NCBI GenBank assembly: GCA_913047625.1
Contig: CAJWUJ010000008.1
Coordinates: forward strand, 1-53,253
Source: an uncultured Dehalococcoidia bacterium
Lineage (GTDB): Bacteria > Chloroflexota > Dehalococcoidia > Lucifugimonadales > CAJWUJ01
Direction: 5' to 3'
DNA: 53,253 nt
Shown one piece after another: positions 26,800-38,129 of this stretch. Position numbers and translations under genes: made by a program. The notes under the pieces were generated by a model, which was given only the letters and a program-made list of their open reading frames with translations, was not told the origin of the DNA and searched no databases. Numbering within the stretch: position 1 is the first letter of the stretch; the number at the start of each line of letters is the position of its first letter.

Positions 26800-27957
26800 T
26801 TAGATTTGATACAGTTTTAAGATATTACGGGCTATTACTAAGCGTTGGATTTCGCTACTGCCTTCGTAAATTTCAGTAATTTTAGCATCTCTATAATACC
26901 GTTCAACAGGATTATCTTTAAAGAATCCGTACCCACCATGAATTTGGAGGGCTTTATCAGTTACAAAATGAGCGGTTTCTGAAGCGAAAAGTTTCGCCAT
27001 TGCTGACTCTATTGTGTGGGGAAGGTTTTGATCTTTTAGCAAAGCTGCTCGACGAGTTAGTAGACGGGCGGCTTCTATTTTTGTAGCGCAATCCGCTAAC
27101 ATGAATTGAATTGCTTGATGTTGAGCTAGCGGGCGATTGAAAGTTTGGCGTTGCTGACTATAGGACAGTGCTTTTTCTAAAGATCCTTGAGCAATTCCTA
27201 CTGCTTGTGATGCGATAATAATCCGAGATGAATCTAATATTTGCATTGCTATTTTGAAACCATCTTCCTCCTGCCCCAACACGTTAAAGGCAGGCACTTT
27301 AGTATTGTTAAAATCGATTTCAGCAGTGCTAGAGGCTCGTATTCCCATTTTGCCTTTTAAAGGGTTAATCGTTATGCCAGGGGAATGTCTATCTACAACG
27401 AGGCATATGATGCCTTTACTTCCAGGTTGATTGTTTAGACGTGCAAATACCGTGAATAGTGATGCCTCATTGGCATTCGTAATAAAGGTTTTAGTCCCGT
27501 TGATGACGTATGATCCGTTATTCTTCTCCACTTGGCATGACAAAGCAGATGCATCGGAACCACAGTCTGGTTCAGTAAGACACCATGCTCCAATATCCCT
27601 TCCCTCAATCATGCCGGGGACGAATTTCTCCCGTTGATCTGGTCTGCTGAAATTATATATTGTGGCTAAAGTAAGGGATACATGTGCTATAAAGCTTGTG
27701 CTCGTTCCTGCGCATGCTTTGGCTATCTCTTCTACGACAACTGCCAACTCTTGATATCCTCCACTAGATCCGCCTAATTCAGGATCAATACCAGTTCCCA
27801 TGACACCGAGAGAAGCTAAACCCTGAAGATTTTCGGTAGGAAACTGTTCGTTTTGGTCCAAGAGATGAGCGTGTGGCGCAATATGCTTTTGACTAAATTC
27901 TGATAGGGTTTTTTTAAGGAGAAGTTGTTCTTCGGTCAAAAGTAGAGAATTATTCAT
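26800..27957 (-). CDS. Acyl-CoA dehydrogenase
   Basis: A 385-residue FAD-dependent acyl-CoA dehydrogenase. I chose ATG 27957 (MNNSLLLTEEQLLLKKTL), with GGAAGGA upstream; the longer frame to 28077 overlaps the mutase gene and adds unrelated residues. Motifs seen: WCLTEPDCGSDAS, SSTAEIDFNNTKVPA, FNRPLAQHQAIQFMLADC, and the catalytic Glu in YRDAKITEIYEGSSEIQR. Its place between the mutase subunits suggests a short or branched-chain acyl-CoA feeding propionyl-CoA/methylmalonyl-CoA, which is inference. Confidence 0.93.
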   Translation of the reverse strand: MNNSLLLTEEQLLLKKTLSEFSQKHIAPHAHLLDQNEQFPTENLQGLASLGVMGTGIDPELGGSSGGYQELAVVVEEIAKACAGTSTSFIAHVSLTLATIYNFSRPDQREKFVPGMIEGRDIGAWCLTEPDCGSDASALSCQVEKNNGSYVINGTKTFITNANEASLFTVFARLNNQPGSKGIICLVVDRHSPGITINPLKGKMGIRASSTAEIDFNNTKVPAFNVLGQEEDGFKIAMQILDSSRIIIASQAVGIAQGSLEKALSYSQQRQTFNRPLAQHQAIQFMLADCATKIEAARLLTRRAALLKDQNLPHTIESAMAKLFASETAHFVTDKALQIHGGYGFFKDNPVERYYRDAKITEIYEGSSEIQRLVIARNILKLYQI

Positions 27958-27989
27958 TAGAGTTCCTTCCTGTAAACTTCTTTCTGCAA

Positions 27990-29576
27990 TTATATAATAA
28001 CGGTCTCTTGATGTTCTCCAAATACTGATCTTAGAACATCTGATATTTCTCCGACCGTTGCATAAGCTTGAACACATTCCATGATAGGCTCAATGGTATT
28101 GTCATCAGAACTGGCAACTGATTTTAGTTTAAGTAATGATGCTTCAACTTTGGCGTTGTCTCGAGAAGCTTTTATTTTGCTGAGTTTTGTCATTTGACTT
28201 TTTGCAGCTGACGATTCTACTGGTGTTATTTTGGCTGGTTCAAGTTCGGGTTTTTGATATTTGTTCACACCGACTATAATTTGATCTTCGGCTTCAATCG
28301 CCTTTTGAAGGGTGTAAGCACTTTCATGAATTTGAAGTGCTTGGAACCCGTTTTCGATACCAGAAATTGCACCACCGAGGTCTTCAACTTCATCAATCAA
28401 TATTTTGGTTTTTTCATATAATTGATTTGTAAGGTGTTCCACGTAATAAGATCCCGCTAGAGGGTCTACGGTGTTTATGATCCCTGACTCGTGTGCGAGG
28501 ATCTGTTGGGTTCTGAGGGATAGTTCAGCAGATGCTTCAGATGGCAATGAGAGCGCTTCATCTTTCGAATTTACATGGAGAGATTGAGTTCCCCCTAGAA
28601 CAGCTGCAAGAGCTTGAATAGTAGTTCGGATTACATTGTTGTCAATTTGCTGGGCAGTTAGTGTCACACCTGCGGTTTGGGTATGAAATCTGAGCATCAT
28701 AGATTTAGGGTTTTTTGCTTTAAACTTGGTTTTCATGATGTCGGCCCAAATTCTTCTAGCAGCCCTATATTTAGCTATTTCCTCGAATAGGTCTGTTGAA
28801 GCAACAAAAAAGAATGACAGACGGTTAGCGAACTGATCGACATCAAGGCCTGCCTTAAGAGCAGCTTTGACATATTCGATGGCATTAGAGAATGTGAAGG
28901 CTAGTTCTTGTATAGCTGTTGCTCCAGCTTCTCTCATGTGGTAGCCAGAGATGCTTATGGTGTTCCAGTTTGGAACCTGCTCAGCACAAAACGTGAATAT
29001 ATCAGTGACCAATCGCATTGAGTGTTTTGGAGGATAGATATATGTGCCTCTAGCTATATATTCTTTCAATATGTCATTTTGAATAGTCCCGCGTACTTGA
29101 TCAAGCGGTATTCCTTGCTTTTTTGCCACTGACAAATATAGAGCTAACAAAACAGGGGCGGTTGCATTAATAGTCATGGATGTGGTTACTTTTTCAAGAG
29201 GAATATCCCTTAATAAAGTCTCCATATCATCTAATGTATCGATAGGTACGCCAACTTTCCCTACTTCACCAAGCGAAATAGAATGGTCTGAGTCGTAGCC
29301 AGTCTGGGTAGGTAAGTCGAAGGCGATAGAAAGACCTGTTTGCCCTTGATTCAAAAGATAATGGAATCTTTTGTTGGATTCTTCTGGAGTGGAATATCCA
29401 GAATACTGTCGCATAGTCCAAAGGCGAGCACGGTACATTTCTGCTCTTATTCCTCTGGTAAAGGGGTATTCCCCCGGGATCCCTATATGGCTGTCGTAGT
29501 CTAAATTCGAGCAGTCTTCAGGATAATGAATAGGTTTAACAGGGATTCCTGATGCTGTGGTGAGGTCGTCTTCCAT
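27990..29576 (-). CDS. Methylmalonyl-CoA mutase, catalytic subunit
   Basis: A 528-residue TIM-barrel subunit. The N-terminal block YPFTRGIRAEMYRARLWTMR, then QYSGYSTPEESNKRFHYLL, and the DLPTQTGYDSDH segment are diagnostic, and the middle SGYHMREAGATAIQELAF matches the substrate channel. It lacks the fused B12 domain, supplied by the separate gene at 25473-25889. It opens a five-gene minus-strand run (mutase, dehydrogenase, DUF2784, epimerase, B12 subunit). Together they turn propionyl-derived methylmalonyl-CoA into succinyl-CoA. No propionyl-CoA carboxylase is in the window. Confidence 0.95.
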   Translation of the reverse strand: MEDDLTTASGIPVKPIHYPEDCSNLDYDSHIGIPGEYPFTRGIRAEMYRARLWTMRQYSGYSTPEESNKRFHYLLNQGQTGLSIAFDLPTQTGYDSDHSISLGEVGKVGVPIDTLDDMETLLRDIPLEKVTTSMTINATAPVLLALYLSVAKKQGIPLDQVRGTIQNDILKEYIARGTYIYPPKHSMRLVTDIFTFCAEQVPNWNTISISGYHMREAGATAIQELAFTFSNAIEYVKAALKAGLDVDQFANRLSFFFVASTDLFEEIAKYRAARRIWADIMKTKFKAKNPKSMMLRFHTQTAGVTLTAQQIDNNVIRTTIQALAAVLGGTQSLHVNSKDEALSLPSEASAELSLRTQQILAHESGIINTVDPLAGSYYVEHLTNQLYEKTKILIDEVEDLGGAISGIENGFQALQIHESAYTLQKAIEAEDQIIVGVNKYQKPELEPAKITPVESSAAKSQMTKLSKIKASRDNAKVEASLLKLKSVASSDDNTIEPIMECVQAYATVGEISDVLRSVFGEHQETVII

Positions 29577-30730: not shown

Positions 30731-32809
30731 TTAATCCAAACTGATAATTAGGCTTCCGTATGTTTCTACTACGGCATGCTCTTTTGGAGCTATGGGGGTG
30801 GTGGAGTCCATTTGTTCTATGATTGCAGGACCCTCTATTTCGTGACCTTGGAGAAGATCTTCTCGCTGAAATATAGGTGTCTTGGAAGGTCCTTCCTCCC
30901 ACCAAACTTCTCGGAATCCTACTGGAATAGGATCCAGTAAGGCTTCTTTGAGTGGGCTGGGTTTGATTCGAGGCATAAGTGACAGGGCTAAGACTCTAAT
31001 ATTGACCAGTTGGACCTTCTCATTGTTGGATTGATACCCATATTCTCTTTCGTGCGCTTGATGAAATGCCTTTGTTAATTTATCAATTTCTTCAGTTTGC
31101 CATTTTTGGTTGGATGAGGGTATCGTAAGCTCATAATTTTGGCCCGCGTATCTTAAATCCGCCAATATCTGAATAGAACGTTTGTCTTCCTGTACGTCTT
31201 CTGAATCTAACCAGTTAATTGCCTGAGAAAACAGGTCATCTATAATTGAGTTGACCTTGTTTAAATCAGCCTCATCAAGCGAAGTTAAATATGTTTTTGT
31301 ATAATCTGCCCTCATATCTGTATTGAGAAGGCCTAATGCACACAATATGCCAGGATTTGGAGGTATGATTACTCTCGACATATTAAGTTGCTTGGCTACC
31401 GCTGTGCCGTGCAATGGCCCGGCGCCTCCGAATGCAACAAGAGTGAAATCACGTGGGTCATACCCTCTTTGAACAGATACTACTCTGGTTGCCAAAACAG
31501 TGTTGGAATTAATTATATCTAGAATACCTTGTGCAGCCTGTACTGTGTTCAAGCCTAACGGATTAGCTATGCTTTCATCGATTGCCTTTTTCGCAAGATG
31601 TTCTTGGAGAGGCATTCTGCCTTTCAGCAAACCTTGGGCATTGAGACGACCAAGTATTAAGTTAGCATCTGTTAGGGTAGGTTGTTCACCTCCTAAGCCG
31701 TAAGATGCTGGTCCAGGTTTGGCTCCAGCGCTTTTGGGCCCAACTTTGAGTCTTCCTCCTGAATCAATCCAAGCAATGCTTCCTCCGCCAGCTCCTACAG
31801 AATTGACGTCAACCATAGGGGTTCTTACAGGATTGCCAGATATTTCTTTTTCGTAGACCATGGATACGGTGCCGTTGCGAATTAAACATACATCTGTGCT
31901 GGTTCCGCCCATGTCAAGAGTGATAATATCTTTTATGCCTGCTAGTTGAGCTACATGCAGACCACCAATGACACCTCCACTTGGTCCAGAGAACAATGTG
32001 TTAGCAGGTCTCTCGATCGCTCTGCTGGGTGACATTATGCCCCCGCTGGATTGCATTATGTATGGCGGTCGGTTGCAACCGAGCTCAGAAATTCGAGCAG
32101 TTAAGTTAGTCAGGTATGTTTTAGTAACTGGTCCCAGTGCTGCATTGGACACGGTAGTGCTGAGCCTCTCAAACTCTCTGAATTCAGGAAGGATCTTGTG
32201 TGCTAGCCAAATGGAAGCTTCGCAATTTAAAGATTTAGCGATTCGTTCTACTTCAAGCTCATGGGCTGGATTAAGAAAATCGAACAAGAAACAAACTGCA
32301 ATTGCGTCAACTTTTTGATGCATAAGTGTTTGTATGGCTTGTTGGGTGCGCTGTAGATCTAATGGGATCACGATTTCTCCCTTAGAGTTAACTCGTTCAG
32401 GAACTTCGATTCTTAGGCTTCGTGAAACTAAGGGGAGAGGTTTTTCAACGAAAAGATCATATAACTTGTCTCGTTTTTGACGACGCAACTCTAGCAAATC
32501 TCTGAAGCCCTCGGTAGTAATCAATCCTACTTTGGCAGTTTTCCCTTCAATCATGGCATTGATTGCTATGGTACTTCCCTGGGCCAAATACACTACTTCA
32601 GTCGGGGATATTTGGTTTTCATTTATAAGCTCAGAAGTTCCAGAATAAATCCCGTCAGCTTGATTCTGGGGGACAGTAGGTACTTTGTGAACCTTGATTT
32701 CTTGTGAATTTTCTTCGAAAAGGACTAGATCTGTGAATGTGCCACCAACATCCGCTCCAATTTTATAACGATTCAATCTCATTACTCCGTGGTTGTACTG
32801 GTCATCCAC
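30731..32809 (-). CDS. Hydantoinase/oxoprolinase subunit A (HyuA), second copy
   Basis: A 692-residue N-methylhydantoinase A / 5-oxoprolinase alpha-type subunit with an ASKHA ATPase fold. Signatures are IGADVGGTFTDLVLF near the N-terminus, ITLDMGGTSTDVCLI, VNSVGAGGGSIAWID and FGGAGPLHGTAVA. The end has RYAGQNYELTI, equivalent to the RYLGQEH of the partial copy at the window start. Start GTG 32809 or, more in line with the family, ATG 32782. No HyuB follows it, so its partner may be the HyuB at 439-2157 or a gene elsewhere. Confidence 0.92.
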   Translation of the reverse strand: MDDQYNHGVMRLNRYKIGADVGGTFTDLVLFEENSQEIKVHKVPTVPQNQADGIYSGTSELINENQISPTEVVYLAQGSTIAINAMIEGKTAKVGLITTEGFRDLLELRRQKRDKLYDLFVEKPLPLVSRSLRIEVPERVNSKGEIVIPLDLQRTQQAIQTLMHQKVDAIAVCFLFDFLNPAHELEVERIAKSLNCEASIWLAHKILPEFREFERLSTTVSNAALGPVTKTYLTNLTARISELGCNRPPYIMQSSGGIMSPSRAIERPANTLFSGPSGGVIGGLHVAQLAGIKDIITLDMGGTSTDVCLIRNGTVSMVYEKEISGNPVRTPMVDVNSVGAGGGSIAWIDSGGRLKVGPKSAGAKPGPASYGLGGEQPTLTDANLILGRLNAQGLLKGRMPLQEHLAKKAIDESIANPLGLNTVQAAQGILDIINSNTVLATRVVSVQRGYDPRDFTLVAFGGAGPLHGTAVAKQLNMSRVIIPPNPGILCALGLLNTDMRADYTKTYLTSLDEADLNKVNSIIDDLFSQAINWLDSEDVQEDKRSIQILADLRYAGQNYELTIPSSNQKWQTEEIDKLTKAFHQAHEREYGYQSNNEKVQLVNIRVLALSLMPRIKPSPLKEALLDPIPVGFREVWWEEGPSKTPIFQREDLLQGHEIEGPAIIEQMDSTTPIAPKEHAVVETYGSLIISLD

Positions 32810-32860
32810 TTGGACGACGAGCTAATAGGCCAAGACGTCTACCAGAGTGAATATATTAAG

Positions 32861-32887
32861 CTAATAGAATATAGACCAATGTGTCAA
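32861..32887 (-). promoter_or_regulatory. Possible promoter of the second hyuA
   Basis: On the minus strand a perfect TTGACA (32882-32887) precedes TATTAG (32861-32866) by 15 bases, about 50 bases upstream of the gene. The spacing is short and the -10 poor. Confidence 0.35.
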
Positions 32888-32984
32888 TGATTTGCTGCTA
32901 GACTTGCTTGAATATCTATGATAATGCGAGGAATAAACTGGCTATTCGCTATATTTCTTGTTGATGAGTTCTTCCAAACGGAAA

Positions 32985-33776
32985 TTACCAGGGAAAACTT
33001 CCATTAAAAGTGAAATAACAGCTTTGGCCTCCATCAATTACCATTTCAGAACCTGTCATGTAGGATGACGCATCAGACGCAAGGAATAGTGCAGCCTGGG
33101 CTACATCATCAGTTAAACCTACTCTCCCTAATGGGATTGTTTTCTCAAGTTGTTCAAGCTGTTCTTTGTTGTCTAAAGTTGCCGCAGTCATTGGTGAGTA
33201 TATCATCCCTGGATGAATGGAGTTGATCCTTATTCCGTGGCTTCCATATTGAACGGCTGCTGCTTTCGTCAGGCTACGGACAGCTCCTTTGCTTGAGCTA
33301 TAAGCCGCCGCTTTTAGATGTCCCAGTAAACCTGCCACTGACGACATATTGATTATATTTCCGGTTCTGTTTGCAATCATTCTAGGGATAACCGCTGACA
33401 TTCCTAAAAAAACACCGTTAACATTTACATTGATCACTTGCTCCCATTCGGTCAGTGACATTTCTAATAGAGGCTTCCTGATGTTAGTTCCTGCATTGTT
33501 AACTAAAACATCAATAGTTCCAGTCTCGGCTACTACTTTATTAACTAAATCTGTCCACTCTTGTTCAGCTGTTACATTTAGAGATAGGGCAGTACATTTC
33601 CCTCCCTGTCCGACTATTTCTTTTTCAACTGCCCTGGCTTGATCCGTAGCTATATCACCAATAAATAAAGTGGCTCCATGTGTTGCAAATAACTTAGCTA
33701 TGGCTTTTCCGATTCCTTGGGATCCACCAGTAATGAGGATGGTTTTATGTGCAAGTAATCTGTCGTAATCAAGCAT
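32985..33776 (-). CDS. Short-chain dehydrogenase/reductase (intact)
   Basis: A 263-residue classical SDR. The cofactor motif TGGSQGIG is at residues 16-23, NNAG at 93-96, catalytic Ser146, Tyr159 and Lys163 (AYSSSKGAV), and the PG motif HPGMIYSP follows. The ATG at 33776 has GGAGG eight bases upstream and lies eight bases inside the end of the previous gene. It is a paralog of that gene and the two are co-translated. The substrate is unknown; 3-oxoacyl or cyclic-alcohol substrates are typical. Confidence 0.9.
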   Translation of the reverse strand: MLDYDRLLAHKTILITGGSQGIGKAIAKLFATHGATLFIGDIATDQARAVEKEIVGQGGKCTALSLNVTAEQEWTDLVNKVVAETGTIDVLVNNAGTNIRKPLLEMSLTEWEQVINVNVNGVFLGMSAVIPRMIANRTGNIINMSSVAGLLGHLKAAAYSSSKGAVRSLTKAAAVQYGSHGIRINSIHPGMIYSPMTAATLDNKEQLEQLEKTIPLGRVGLTDDVAQAALFLASDASSYMTGSEMVIDGGQSCYFTFNGSFPW

Positions 33777-34485
33777 TACTGAATCCTCCATCCACTATAA
33801 TCTCAGTGCCTGTGATATACCATGAATCTTTGCTTGATAAGTGCAACACGACATGTATGAGTTCCTCAGCGTTGCCTAGTCTCGCCATGGGGATCTGAGA
33901 AGTAGAAACAGTAGTATCGGTGTTTTGTAACCTATCAGTTGCAAACAGGCCCATTAGGATACAGTTACTCCTGATATTGTACTTAGCATACTGGACTGCT
34001 ATTGATTTTGATAAGGTTCTAATTCCCCCGTCACTACTTGCTAGTGCTGAAGAAGCAGGTGACCCTATATTTGCGTACATTGATACCAGATTAACTATCG
34101 AGCCTCCACCAGCTGCTTTGAGATGAGGAATTGTTGACTTTGCTCCCAAGAAGACAGAGTTTAAATAATTATGAACTGTTGAATAGAAAGTTGTATCTAG
34201 ACTGTTCAATGTTTGCTTGGCAGTTGGATGATTAAAGTTGTTGATGAGGACGTCAATTTGTCCAAATTTATTACTGGCCGTCTTGAGGGCATTATCCCAA
34301 GAATTTTCTTCGGTGTATTGGATAGGAACTTCGATACGGTTATCAGTTTGGGCACATTTGGTTCCAGGGGGAACTCCAAGGACAAGTTTCGCACCGTGTT
34401 CTTGGAATAGATCAGAGAGGGCTTTGCCCCAGAAACTTGATCCGTGGGTAATAAATACAACCTTTTCTTCTAGTTTCTTACGCAT
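33769..34485 (-). CDS. SDR-like protein with lost catalytic Tyr and Lys
   Basis: A 238-residue SDR-family protein (ATG 34485, MRKKLEEKVVFITHGSS). Aligned with the intact neighbour, the cofactor motif TGGSQGIG has become THGSSFWG, NNAG has become NNFN, catalytic Ser135 is kept, but Tyr is Leu148 and Lys is Asp152. The C-terminal half remains close to normal (SKSIAVQYAKYNIRSNCILMG, YITGTEIIVDGGF). The frame is open and the fold seems kept, so a non-catalytic partner of the downstream SDR is more likely than a decaying gene, but this is inference. Confidence 0.85.
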   Translation of the reverse strand: MRKKLEEKVVFITHGSSFWGKALSDLFQEHGAKLVLGVPPGTKCAQTDNRIEVPIQYTEENSWDNALKTASNKFGQIDVLINNFNHPTAKQTLNSLDTTFYSTVHNYLNSVFLGAKSTIPHLKAAGGGSIVNLVSMYANIGSPASSALASSDGGIRTLSKSIAVQYAKYNIRSNCILMGLFATDRLQNTDTTVSTSQIPMARLGNAEELIHVVLHLSSKDSWYITGTEIIVDGGFSNA

Positions 34486-34560: not shown

Positions 34561-36351
34561 TCAGATATTGTCAAGACCAACATCACATAGCTGCCTGTAT
34601 AGATTTGATTTCAACATCAGTTGATCATGTGTGCCTTCCGCTACTATTTTCCCTTGGTCTACCACTAGAATCCTGTGAGCGTGTCGTACGGTTGATAAGC
34701 GATGGGCTATTATGATGGATGTTCTGGATTTTAGTAAAATACCCAGAGCTTGCTGGATAAGAATTTCTGTTGGTGTATCAACATACGATGTTGCCTCATC
34801 TAGCACGAGTATTTTCGGGTTCTTCACTACAGCTCGTGTAAAACTTAACAACTGTCTGTATCCTGCACTAAGCTCTGTACCTCTTTCTCCGACTGCGGAC
34901 AAATATCCATTGGGTAATTGTTCGATGAACTGATCTGCTCCTAGTAGTTTGGTGATTTCTTTAATTCTTTTTAAAGAAATATCCGGGGTGTTGTATCTAA
35001 TATTATCCAGAATAGTTCCGGAAAAGATATGAGGGTCTTGGGGAACTAGTCCAATATTAGCAGTGTATGAAGATCGAGATAGTTCTTTCACATTATATTG
35101 ATCTACGAAAATGCCTCCATTAGTCACATCGTAAAACCGGAGGAGTAGTTTGATAATAGTAGTTTTACCTGCTCCAGTAGGGCCGACCAAGGCAATATTT
35201 TCCCCAGGATTTATCACAAAGTTAATATTATTCAGTACCGGAATGTTTTCTTTATATTCAAAAGAGACATTCTTGTACTCAATAGTACCAATTAATTGCT
35301 TTATAACCACAGGGCTTGGACGATCAGCCACTGCTGGCTTTTGGTCTAGGAGACTAAATACACGACTTCCTGATGCCATAGCTCTTTGTAACTGTGTGTA
35401 ATGCATTGTAAGGTTTCGAATCGGATCGAAAAAACGTTGAATGTATAATACAAAAGCTATAAGGATTCCAGTTGTTAAATCTCCCCCAGCAATCATTTGA
35501 GCCCCAAATACTACTACTAGGCTTAATCCAACTGCTGTTAACATTTCTACAATTGGCAGAAGTACGTTTGAAATTTTGGAAGTTCGTAGAGTAGAGCTAA
35601 GATAATCGTTATTGGTTTGGCTAAAATGCTCGATGTTAGCTTTTTGTCTATTTACGCTTTGTATTAATCGTATGCCTGATATGTTTTCCTGTAGTTCAGA
35701 GTTCAATGTGGCGAGCTTATAGCGTACCGCTAGAAATTCAGGACGAGCGTACTTTTGCCAAACATAAACAGCTATAAAGAGGAAAGGTATTATCGTTACT
35801 GTAGTCAGAGCCAGTTGAGTGTGCATTAAAATCATTGCGACTGTTATACCAACCAAACTCAAGAGATCTGCAAAACTTAAAATCAAAATAGATAAGAATT
35901 CTTGTAGTTGCTGTATGTCGTTTTGGATGCGGGACATAATTTTACCTGTAGGGTTAGTGTCAAAGAATGAAAGTGACAAACTTTGAATGTGCGAAAAGGT
36001 TTTAAGTCTAAGCTTGTATAAGACTTTTTGGGTGATAATAGCCAGCGAGCGCAGATGAAGATAGTGAAATAGGTACTGAGTTGATGTAACGGAAAAAAAT
36101 ACAATGATCGGGAATGCTACGTTTCCTGAGTTTGCGGAACCAATATGGTCGTCAATTGCGGATTGAATTATCCAAGGGATTCCGACTACTGTCCCAGAGT
36201 AAATAATTAATGACAATAAAGTAGTGGCTAGTAGCTTCTTGTACGGGAGAGCGAAAGCTAAGAGGCGCCAGACCACCGAGTGATCGTATCCAGCACTTAA
36301 TTCAGAGTCGTCTAATCCTACGTGGAAATGGCCAATTCCTGAAACATGCAT
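34561..36351 (-). CDS. ABC exporter half-transporter with degenerate signature motif
   Basis: A 596-residue half-transporter: an N-terminal six-helix membrane domain and an ATPase domain from about residue 355. Walker A is VGPTGAGKTT, Walker B ends in the catalytic Glu519 (LVLDEATS), and the switch His is H550. The signature is LSAGY (residues 494-498) instead of LSGGQ. Its start overlaps the stop of the upstream ABC gene (TAATG), so the two are made together as a heterodimer. Multidrug or lipid export is typical for such pairs; the substrate is unknown. Confidence 0.92.
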   Translation of the reverse strand: MHVSGIGHFHVGLDDSELSAGYDHSVVWRLLAFALPYKKLLATTLLSLIIYSGTVVGIPWIIQSAIDDHIGSANSGNVAFPIIVFFSVTSTQYLFHYLHLRSLAIITQKVLYKLRLKTFSHIQSLSLSFFDTNPTGKIMSRIQNDIQQLQEFLSILILSFADLLSLVGITVAMILMHTQLALTTVTIIPFLFIAVYVWQKYARPEFLAVRYKLATLNSELQENISGIRLIQSVNRQKANIEHFSQTNNDYLSSTLRTSKISNVLLPIVEMLTAVGLSLVVVFGAQMIAGGDLTTGILIAFVLYIQRFFDPIRNLTMHYTQLQRAMASGSRVFSLLDQKPAVADRPSPVVIKQLIGTIEYKNVSFEYKENIPVLNNINFVINPGENIALVGPTGAGKTTIIKLLLRFYDVTNGGIFVDQYNVKELSRSSYTANIGLVPQDPHIFSGTILDNIRYNTPDISLKRIKEITKLLGADQFIEQLPNGYLSAVGERGTELSAGYRQLLSFTRAVVKNPKILVLDEATSYVDTPTEILIQQALGILLKSRTSIIIAHRLSTVRHAHRILVVDQGKIVAEGTHDQLMLKSNLYRQLCDVGLDNI

Positions 36352-38129
36352 TAGAGTAAGCCCTCATCGTGACTTTGTTCTGTTAACTGCTCAGATGATT
36401 TATGCGAATCAGTATTTTGGTAGGCATATAACTGTTTGTAATAGTTGTCTGAAACCATCAATTCTGAATGTGTTCCAACGCTCTGTATGGTCCCGTTTTG
36501 CAGAATGATAATTAGATCAGCAAACTTCGTGGAAGAAAATCGATGAGTGGCGATGATGGTCGTTTTGCCGGTAAGTCTCGCAAATAAGTTTGTGAGAAGC
36601 TTGCTTTCTGTGAGAACATCAATGTTTGATGTGGCATCGTCTAAAAGAATAATCTTTGGATCAGATAGAAGACATCTGGCTATTGCAAGTCTTTGTTTTT
36701 GCCCCCCAGATAGAGTGATGCCTCTCTCTCCTACTAAAGTTTCATATTGTTGGGGCAAGGTCATTACAAATTGATGTAGTTGGGATATTTCTGAAACTGA
36801 TACAACCTCAGCCATAGTGGCATCTTCTTTACCGTATCTAATGTTGTCCAATATGGTGGTCGAGAATAAAAAGGGATCTTGAAATACGATCCCTACATCA
36901 TATCTGAGTGCTATCGGGTCTGTCGAAGCTATTTCGGTTTCATCGATAGTGATCATTCCGGATTGTGGATTGTAGAATTTCAAGAGCAGCTGTAGAAGTG
37001 TGCTTTTCCCTGATCCAGGTTCTCCTGTGATTACTACTGTAGTACCAGCTGGAATTTTCAAATTAAGGTTCTTGAGAATAGCGATGTTGTCACTGTAAGA
37101 AAAATGGACTTTTCCGAGTTCAATTTCTCCGCGAAGATGCTGATTATTAGAAACCTTTGGTGTATCAAAATCATAGGAATCAGCATCAATCACTTTAAAA
37201 AAGCGGTCACCTGCTGCTATTCCTCGGGAGAGTGAGCTAATGATCCAACCTGCCATTCTGACAGACGGAGCTAAAAGGCCTAGATAGAAGATGAACTGGG
37301 CGAGTTGACCAGGTGAAATAGTTTGATCGATATTAATTAACCGAATTCCCAAGAACAAAACTATGCCTGTTATAGATGAGAATATGAAAGTAAAAAAAGC
37401 TCCGTTGCTAGAGTGTACTAAACTTGCCTTTAAACTATGTTGGTAGACTGCGGCAGTAGTTGATTCAAACTTTGCGTGCTCATAAGTTTCAGCATTAAAT
37501 GATTTAGTAGCTTGGATACCTGTAATGCTTTCTTGAAGTACGGTTGTCATTCCCCCTAATGCTTCTTGAGCTTTCAGCCAACATATTCTTAATTGTTTAG
37601 CTATTGTGGTGCCTCTCCAAAGGATAAACGGAATAAAGCTCAAGCTTACTGATGCTAGTTCCCAGCTTATAGCAAATAATATTACTGTTATCCCTAGTAT
37701 CATTGTTATCAACGAAACTCCTCGAAGTATCCCATCACTTACGACCCATCGAATTGCTTCGATGTCAGCGGTCGCTCTGGACATCAAGTCGCCTGTATGC
37801 TGTTGATCATGAAAGGAAAAACTTAGACCCTGATATTTCTGAAAGAGACTGTTCCGTAAATCTTGTGAAATGAGTTGCGAAGTTGACTCTGATAAATAAT
37901 GCTGGCCATACGTGAATAATCCTCTAATCAGGCTAGATGACAATATTAGAAAAGCAAGTACTATGAATTGCATATGCTCTCTATTTTCAAGGGCGCTGTC
38001 TATGGCTAAACCAAGAATCCAGGGAATCAGATAGGTCAACCCAGTCACAATGAGAAGGCAGCAGTATGCTGAAATTAGTCGATATCGATAAGGCTTAGCA
38101 TATTTAAATAGACGGAGGAGGATAGCCAT
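36351..38129 (-). CDS. ABC exporter half-transporter with Walker B Glu-to-Asp
   Basis: A 592-residue half-transporter with a membrane domain of six helices and a C-terminal ATPase. Walker A GEPGSGKS is at residues 369-376, the signature LSGGQ at 473-477, and Walker B ends LLDDATS with Asp498 in place of the catalytic Glu. The neighbour has the opposite defect. One ATP site of the heterodimer is therefore canonical and one degenerate, the known pattern of BmrCD and TM287/288. It opens the two-gene operon. Confidence 0.92.
   Translation of the reverse strand: MAILLRLFKYAKPYRYRLISAYCCLLIVTGLTYLIPWILGLAIDSALENREHMQFIVLAFLILSSSLIRGLFTYGQHYLSESTSQLISQDLRNSLFQKYQGLSFSFHDQQHTGDLMSRATADIEAIRWVVSDGILRGVSLITMILGITVILFAISWELASVSLSFIPFILWRGTTIAKQLRICWLKAQEALGGMTTVLQESITGIQATKSFNAETYEHAKFESTTAAVYQHSLKASLVHSSNGAFFTFIFSSITGIVLFLGIRLINIDQTISPGQLAQFIFYLGLLAPSVRMAGWIISSLSRGIAAGDRFFKVIDADSYDFDTPKVSNNQHLRGEIELGKVHFSYSDNIAILKNLNLKIPAGTTVVITGEPGSGKSTLLQLLLKFYNPQSGMITIDETEIASTDPIALRYDVGIVFQDPFLFSTTILDNIRYGKEDATMAEVVSVSEISQLHQFVMTLPQQYETLVGERGITLSGGQKQRLAIARCLLSDPKIILLDDATSNIDVLTESKLLTNLFARLTGKTTIIATHRFSSTKFADLIIILQNGTIQSVGTHSELMVSDNYYKQLYAYQNTDSHKSSEQLTEQSHDEGLL

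Follow-up and report, generated by a model that had tools for sequence, protein, structure and literature searches.

A degenerate SDR-fold protein encoded in tandem with an intact SDR: a putative active/pseudoenzyme pair in an uncultured Dehalococcoidia bacterium

The window analysed here, a 53,253-nucleotide stretch of DNA from an uncultured Dehalococcoidia bacterium, contains two overlapping SDR genes on the minus strand. One (gene B) codes for an intact classical SDR, and the other (gene A) codes for an SDR-fold protein that has lost the catalytic Tyr and Lys and the cofactor motifs. We lean towards reading the two as a heteromer in which A would be a non-catalytic SDR-fold subunit; the binding of A to B, the stoichiometry, and the role of A are what we infer. 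The heteromer is favored by the open frame, normal codon usage, and fold of A, the retention of its dimer helices, the overlap with B, a second such pair elsewhere in the genome (contig C4), and the precedent of BbsCD. The locus is laid out as follows.

33769..34485, minus strand: gene A, degenerate SDR-fold protein, 238 aa from ATG 34485 (ORF list)
34530, minus strand: alternative TTG start of gene A, 253 aa
32985..33776, minus strand: gene B, intact classical SDR, 263 aa from ATG 33776
33791, minus strand: alternative in-frame ATG of gene B, 268 aa
33769..33776, minus strand: overlap of the A end and the B start, 8 bases (ATGCTTGA; sequence)
34561-36351 and 36351-38129, minus strand: two ABC exporter half-transporters, upstream, 75 bases from A
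30731-32809: hydantoinase A-type gene, downstream of B

The overlap is 8 bases when B starts at ATG 33776 and 23 bases when it starts at ATG 33791. No bbs-type beta-oxidation cluster surrounds the pair, whose neighbors are the two ABC exporters and the hydantoinase A gene. Further along the window (26800-29576, minus strand), the ORFs for an acyl-CoA dehydrogenase and a methylmalonyl-CoA mutase large subunit overlap by 88 bases as listed, and the true start of the dehydrogenase is probably further downstream than that of the listed ORF.

Gene A differs from intact SDRs at most of the positions that define the family's active site, as seen in the following residues.

34426..34449, minus strand: A residues 13-20, THGSSFWG, replacing TGxxxGxG (alignment)
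34231..34242, minus strand: A residues 82-85, NNFN, replacing NNAG (alignment)
34165..34167, minus strand: A Y107, replacing the tetrad Asn (alignment)
34081..34083, minus strand: A S135, catalytic Ser kept (alignment)
34042..34044, minus strand: A L148 (CTA), replacing the catalytic Tyr (sequence and alignment)
34030..34032, minus strand: A D152 (GAC), replacing the catalytic Lys (sequence and alignment)
33784..33795, minus strand: A VDGG (231-234), C-terminal motif kept, with the protein ending in IIVDGG (alignment)

Two of the three cofactor glycines are gone from the glycine loop. The coordinates, the 8-base overlap, and every substitution named in the first-pass annotation proved exact when the sequence and alignment were re-read, and further losses were identified: the tetrad Asn (Y107), the Asp at position D60 (now Q), which holds adenine in SDRs, the Val next to it (now Y), and the Pro of the PG motif (M178). 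The protein is also shortened by an 8-residue deletion after beta-2 and by a shorter substrate loop, with both deletions in frame. At least 10 conserved active-site residues are altered, most of which require at least two nucleotide changes each, and Tyr and Lys are present in all SDR homologs from the first searches; the substitutions in A are therefore beyond chance. Neither the Asn-Ser-Tyr-Lys tetrad (Y107, S135, L148, and D152 in A) nor TGxxxGxG nor NNAG is matched, and, judged from its sequence, A is almost certainly a non-redox protein with an SDR fold. Gene B encodes TGGSQGIG, NNAG, Ser, YSSSK, PG, and IDGG, and the alignment places the full Asn-Ser-Tyr-Lys tetrad in it. Scores against Pfam adh_short_C2 are 227.8 bits for B and 117.8 bits for A, and B is ~50% identical to intact SDRs of the order.

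The proposal that A is a pseudoenzyme with an intact reading frame was borne out by these losses and by a frame with 0 stops in 238 codons; the other two same-strand frames have 11 and 21 stops. Synonymous codon usage of A (-1.160) compares with -1.08 to -1.16 in neighboring genes and is ~2.5 s.d. better than a composition null (-1.232 +/- 0.029). When neutral drift was simulated starting from B, the frame was still open in 20% of runs at 0.05 substitutions/site, in 0.75% at 0.2, and in 0/400 runs at 0.5 and likewise at 0.8, where the drifted sequences were 24–37% identical to the starting sequence. The changed active-site residues of A alone need ~2 changes per codon. An AlphaFold2 model of A has the SDR fold (pLDDT 90, pTM 0.90) and matches SDRs in the PDB with TM values of 0.85–0.93, intact SDRs being the best matches; since intact homologs made up the alignment behind the model, this fold is expected and is no independent evidence. 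The indirect evidence speaks strongly for A having been kept by selection as a protein after, or during, the loss of catalysis.

The search for relatives of A covered genome_contigs, viral_contigs, 250 genomes from the order, and a sample of 393 from the class, and no orthologs were found; the best matches in these collections are intact SDRs with 36–40% identity. The window genome (G000) is the sole member of its family among the genomes compared. The nearest kin of A are hydroxysteroid/alcohol-dehydrogenase-like SDRs. The first-pass annotation had B as the active paralog of A; close paralogy is not supported, as the two are 31% identical and stand apart in a tree in which each sits on a long branch. 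A recent tandem duplication of B was likewise rejected as the origin of A given this identity and the separate tree positions, the latter qualified by the long branches. The tree placed A beside L027 and L032 (SH-aLRT 90), a placement we distrust because the terminal branch of A amounts to 4.0 changes per column and those proteins match B and other SDRs of the window genome better than A. In two intact tandem SDR pairs of relatives (G227:C73 and G219:C7), the two members score well against A and B. Kinship to them is not supported, since all four proteins match B better than A and no synteny is conserved between the A-B block and these nearest tandem pairs.

The glycine loop of A resembles a known route by which cofactor binding has been lost in SDRs. 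In halohydrin dehalogenases this loop has become an anion-binding pocket with motif 1, T-X4-F/Y-X-G, followed by motif 2, S-X12-Y-X3-R (PMC11976700, PMC4989007). Residues T13-HGSS-F18-W-G20 of A fit motif 1 exactly, and Ser135 is kept with the x12 spacing, so that A could be pictured as a protein re-purposed for non-redox chemistry on an SDR scaffold. Such an enzyme is very unlikely here: motif 2 calls for Tyr and Arg where A has Leu148 and Asp152, the 60 best PDB sequence matches include no halohydrin dehalogenase, and the nearest kin are the dehydrogenase-like SDRs named above. Because motif 2 fails, A is not classed as a halohydrin dehalogenase.

The statement in the first-pass annotation that only the active and cofactor sites were lost, and cleanly, goes too far. 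With a 75% conservation cut-off, A keeps 5/15 catalytic or cofactor columns and 58/118 others (Fisher p=0.28, not significant), and losses occur elsewhere too. For near-invariant columns (≥95% conserved in 81 family members, a cut-off picked after the 75% test came out non-significant), A keeps 32/46 non-catalytic columns vs 5/15 catalytic or cofactor columns (Fisher p=0.017). As read from the alignment, the loss in A is biased toward catalytic and cofactor residues, yet it is not clean. Region-wise retention indicates a weakened cofactor half, and in the segment after NNAG together with the substrate loop, 1/18 is kept in A vs 6/18 in B.

A young or decaying pseudogene, with its stop codon still to come, could look like this in part: A is found in one genome only, sits on its extreme branch, and has two deletions and losses beyond the active site. 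This explanation is nonetheless improbable given that the active-site changes mostly take two or more nucleotides each, that codon usage is normal and both deletions are in frame, and that no neutral run stayed open at 0.5 or 0.8 substitutions/site, where identity had fallen to 24–37%, whereas A keeps 32 of the 46 near-invariant residues. An assembly, chimera, or sequencing artifact is scarcely credible. The assembly is of metagenome type (42 contigs, 91% complete, 3.3% contamination), but the changes in A are multi-nucleotide, in frame, and spread along a gene with native codon use, and the alternative frames are closed by their 11 and 21 stops.

Helices alpha-E and alpha-F form the dimer interface of SDRs. 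In these segments A and B each keep 20/39, and outside them 48/123 are kept in A vs 71/123 in B. The resulting ratio of helix to remaining retention is 1.31 for A vs a mean of 0.98 (s.d. 0.09, maximum 1.21) for the 81 family members. This pattern fits a protein that may have been kept for assembly, and an A homodimer would also explain it. It is conceivable that A is maintained without catalysis and independently of B, forming homo-oligomers with a ligand-binding or regulatory role, and that B is only its operon neighbor. The data on frame, codons, fold, and residue retention would be the same, a homodimer would also keep the dimer helices, and A and B are not close paralogs. We consider this unlikely, as A overlaps an active SDR gene by 8 bases and as the C4 family described below bears on the same question.

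In the heteromer that we favor, A and B would be made from one transcript with translation coupled through the overlapping frames. A would join B via the conserved helices alpha-E and alpha-F to give a mixed oligomer, probably A2B2, in which B would carry out NAD(P)-dependent chemistry. In the dinucleotide loop, H14 and the bulky side chains of F18/W19 would block normal NAD(P) binding by A, and a Tyr/Lys proton relay would be impossible in A. Its contribution may be to stabilize B, to shape the substrate pocket of B, or to bind an acyl or substrate moiety.

A scan of the genome's other SDRs identified a second pair of one intact and one degenerate gene on contig C4.

G000:C4 15576-17139 (L103 6574-8141), minus strand: i2/p2 tandem pair, intact i2 then degenerate p2
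L103 6574-7317, minus strand: p2, degenerate SDR whose glycine loop reads VSCFDINWI, with NNAG replaced by NAPI, Lys by Gln (AYSASQA), and PG by IGW
L103 7314-8141, minus strand: i2, intact SDR, overlapping p2 by 4 bases

p2 has orthologs across the order; none of A was found in the collections searched. Lys is missing in 30/30 fetched p2 copies, the window genome's own copy included (26 Gln, 3 Glu, 1 His). The third glycine of the loop and the glycine of NNAG are likewise missing in 30/30, and Tyr is missing in 21/30. A partner SDR is adjacent in 25/30, and all 25 of these partners have intact Tyr, Lys, Ser, and glycines. Values of dN/dS for p2 are ~0.03–0.14 in 10 close species pairs, similar to or modestly above those of i2. 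Among 59 relatives, 28 have both genes, 29 have neither, one has i2 only (G058, 84% complete), and one has p2 only (G031, 92% complete; Fisher p=1.5e-14, with genomes taken as independent although related). The p2 copy in the last of these (L139, G031:C9, 4694-5422) is either a solo pseudo-SDR or one whose i2 partner is missing. Conserved substitutions, low dN/dS, and co-occurrence had been set as the test of A and B, and all three are found in the C4 pair. The few genomes of this family that carry the pseudo-SDR away from its partner would be in line with a B-independent A. In three of the five non-adjacent cases (G028, G083, and G231), however, i2 lies elsewhere in the same genome, so that partnership is apparently the rule in the lineage.

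The gene birA precedes i2/p2 in 10 of the 13 neighborhoods read. Three families of the order (L103, L143, and L147) have a run of histidine biosynthesis genes (hisZ, hisG, hisD, and a hisC-like gene) after the birA-i2-p2 block. Apparent intermediate forms that keep Tyr and Lys and have an altered or lost glycine loop or NNAG were identified outside the order within the same class (L154, L157, L160, and L173), and one of the same kind within the order (L208). These p2 relatives suggest that cofactor binding may have been lost ahead of the catalytic Lys. A sample of the phylum yielded no further clear case of the p2 family; the one extra match (L188) is intact. A was also considered as a p2 ortholog and rejected: it scores 83 bits to p2 vs ~150 bits to intact SDRs and has LMGLF plus D152, with no G-W motif and no Gln.

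On comparative grounds, the predicted active/dead SDR pair is established as a device in this lineage, by a family distinct from that of A. The case for an active/pseudo SDR complex is stronger for the C4 pair than for A and B, which alone make a modest single-genome example to which the C4 family adds weight. With purifying selection and near-perfect co-occurrence order-wide, i2/p2 offers many natural variants in which the role of a dead subunit is testable. We tentatively propose, with rather more doubt than for the A-B heteromer, that active/pseudo SDR heteromers arose in this lineage on two or more separate occasions (once as A-B and once as the i2-p2 pair found order-wide beside birA), and that recruitment of a dead paralog may be a recurrent means of diversifying substrate range in SDR-rich genomes. 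Refractory alicyclic alcohols have been proposed as substrates of the SDR expansions known in SAR202-type marine Chloroflexota (PMC5395668). We infer that the window genome belongs with this type, judging by its gene content and by a related SDR labelled Chloroflexi (L021). The pairs are also a caution that not every SDR copy counted in these SDR-rich genomes is an enzyme.

Another SDR of the window genome (L095 1492-2295; G000:C2 ~32472-33236, minus strand) keeps TGGSEGIG and NNAG, and its active site in the alignment has Ser replaced by Ala, Tyr by Thr, and Lys by Arg (PTAISRA). It would be a cofactor-binding SDR with a catalytic site that is lost or shifted.

Few pseudoenzyme subunits of SDR complexes are known, BbsCD being the solved bacterial case. 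In the mitochondrial ketoacyl-ACP reductase HSD17B8/CBR4, two SDR paralogs form a heteromer with divided roles; this system is eukaryotic, and its likeness to A and B would be one of architecture rather than of close sequence kinship. The i2/p2 pair shares with A and B the overlapping same-strand SDR genes, one of them intact and the other lacking Lys and the glycine loop. It differs in having the active gene first, the reverse of A and B, in typically lying beside birA, and in being widely conserved; p2 itself often has Tyr or Phe, always keeps the Gly of the G-W motif, and is 29% identical to A, with no orthology. BbsCD is reportedly a heterotetramer with inactive pseudoenzyme subunits (PMID 34601806, cited in PMC10818641; structure 7pcs). 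The likeness lies in adjacent genes for two SDR-fold proteins, one inactive and one active; A and B are adjacent and co-directional, and one has an intact active site and the other lacks catalytic and cofactor residues. Bbs pathway genes are absent beside A and B. BbsC is outside the best 60 PDB matches of A, and against the C4 pseudo-SDR profile it reaches 160 bits, fewer than the 178 bits of BbsD, so the origins look independent. The bacterial BbsCD is a nearer precedent for A and B than the mitochondrial or plant SDR pairs to which they had been compared.
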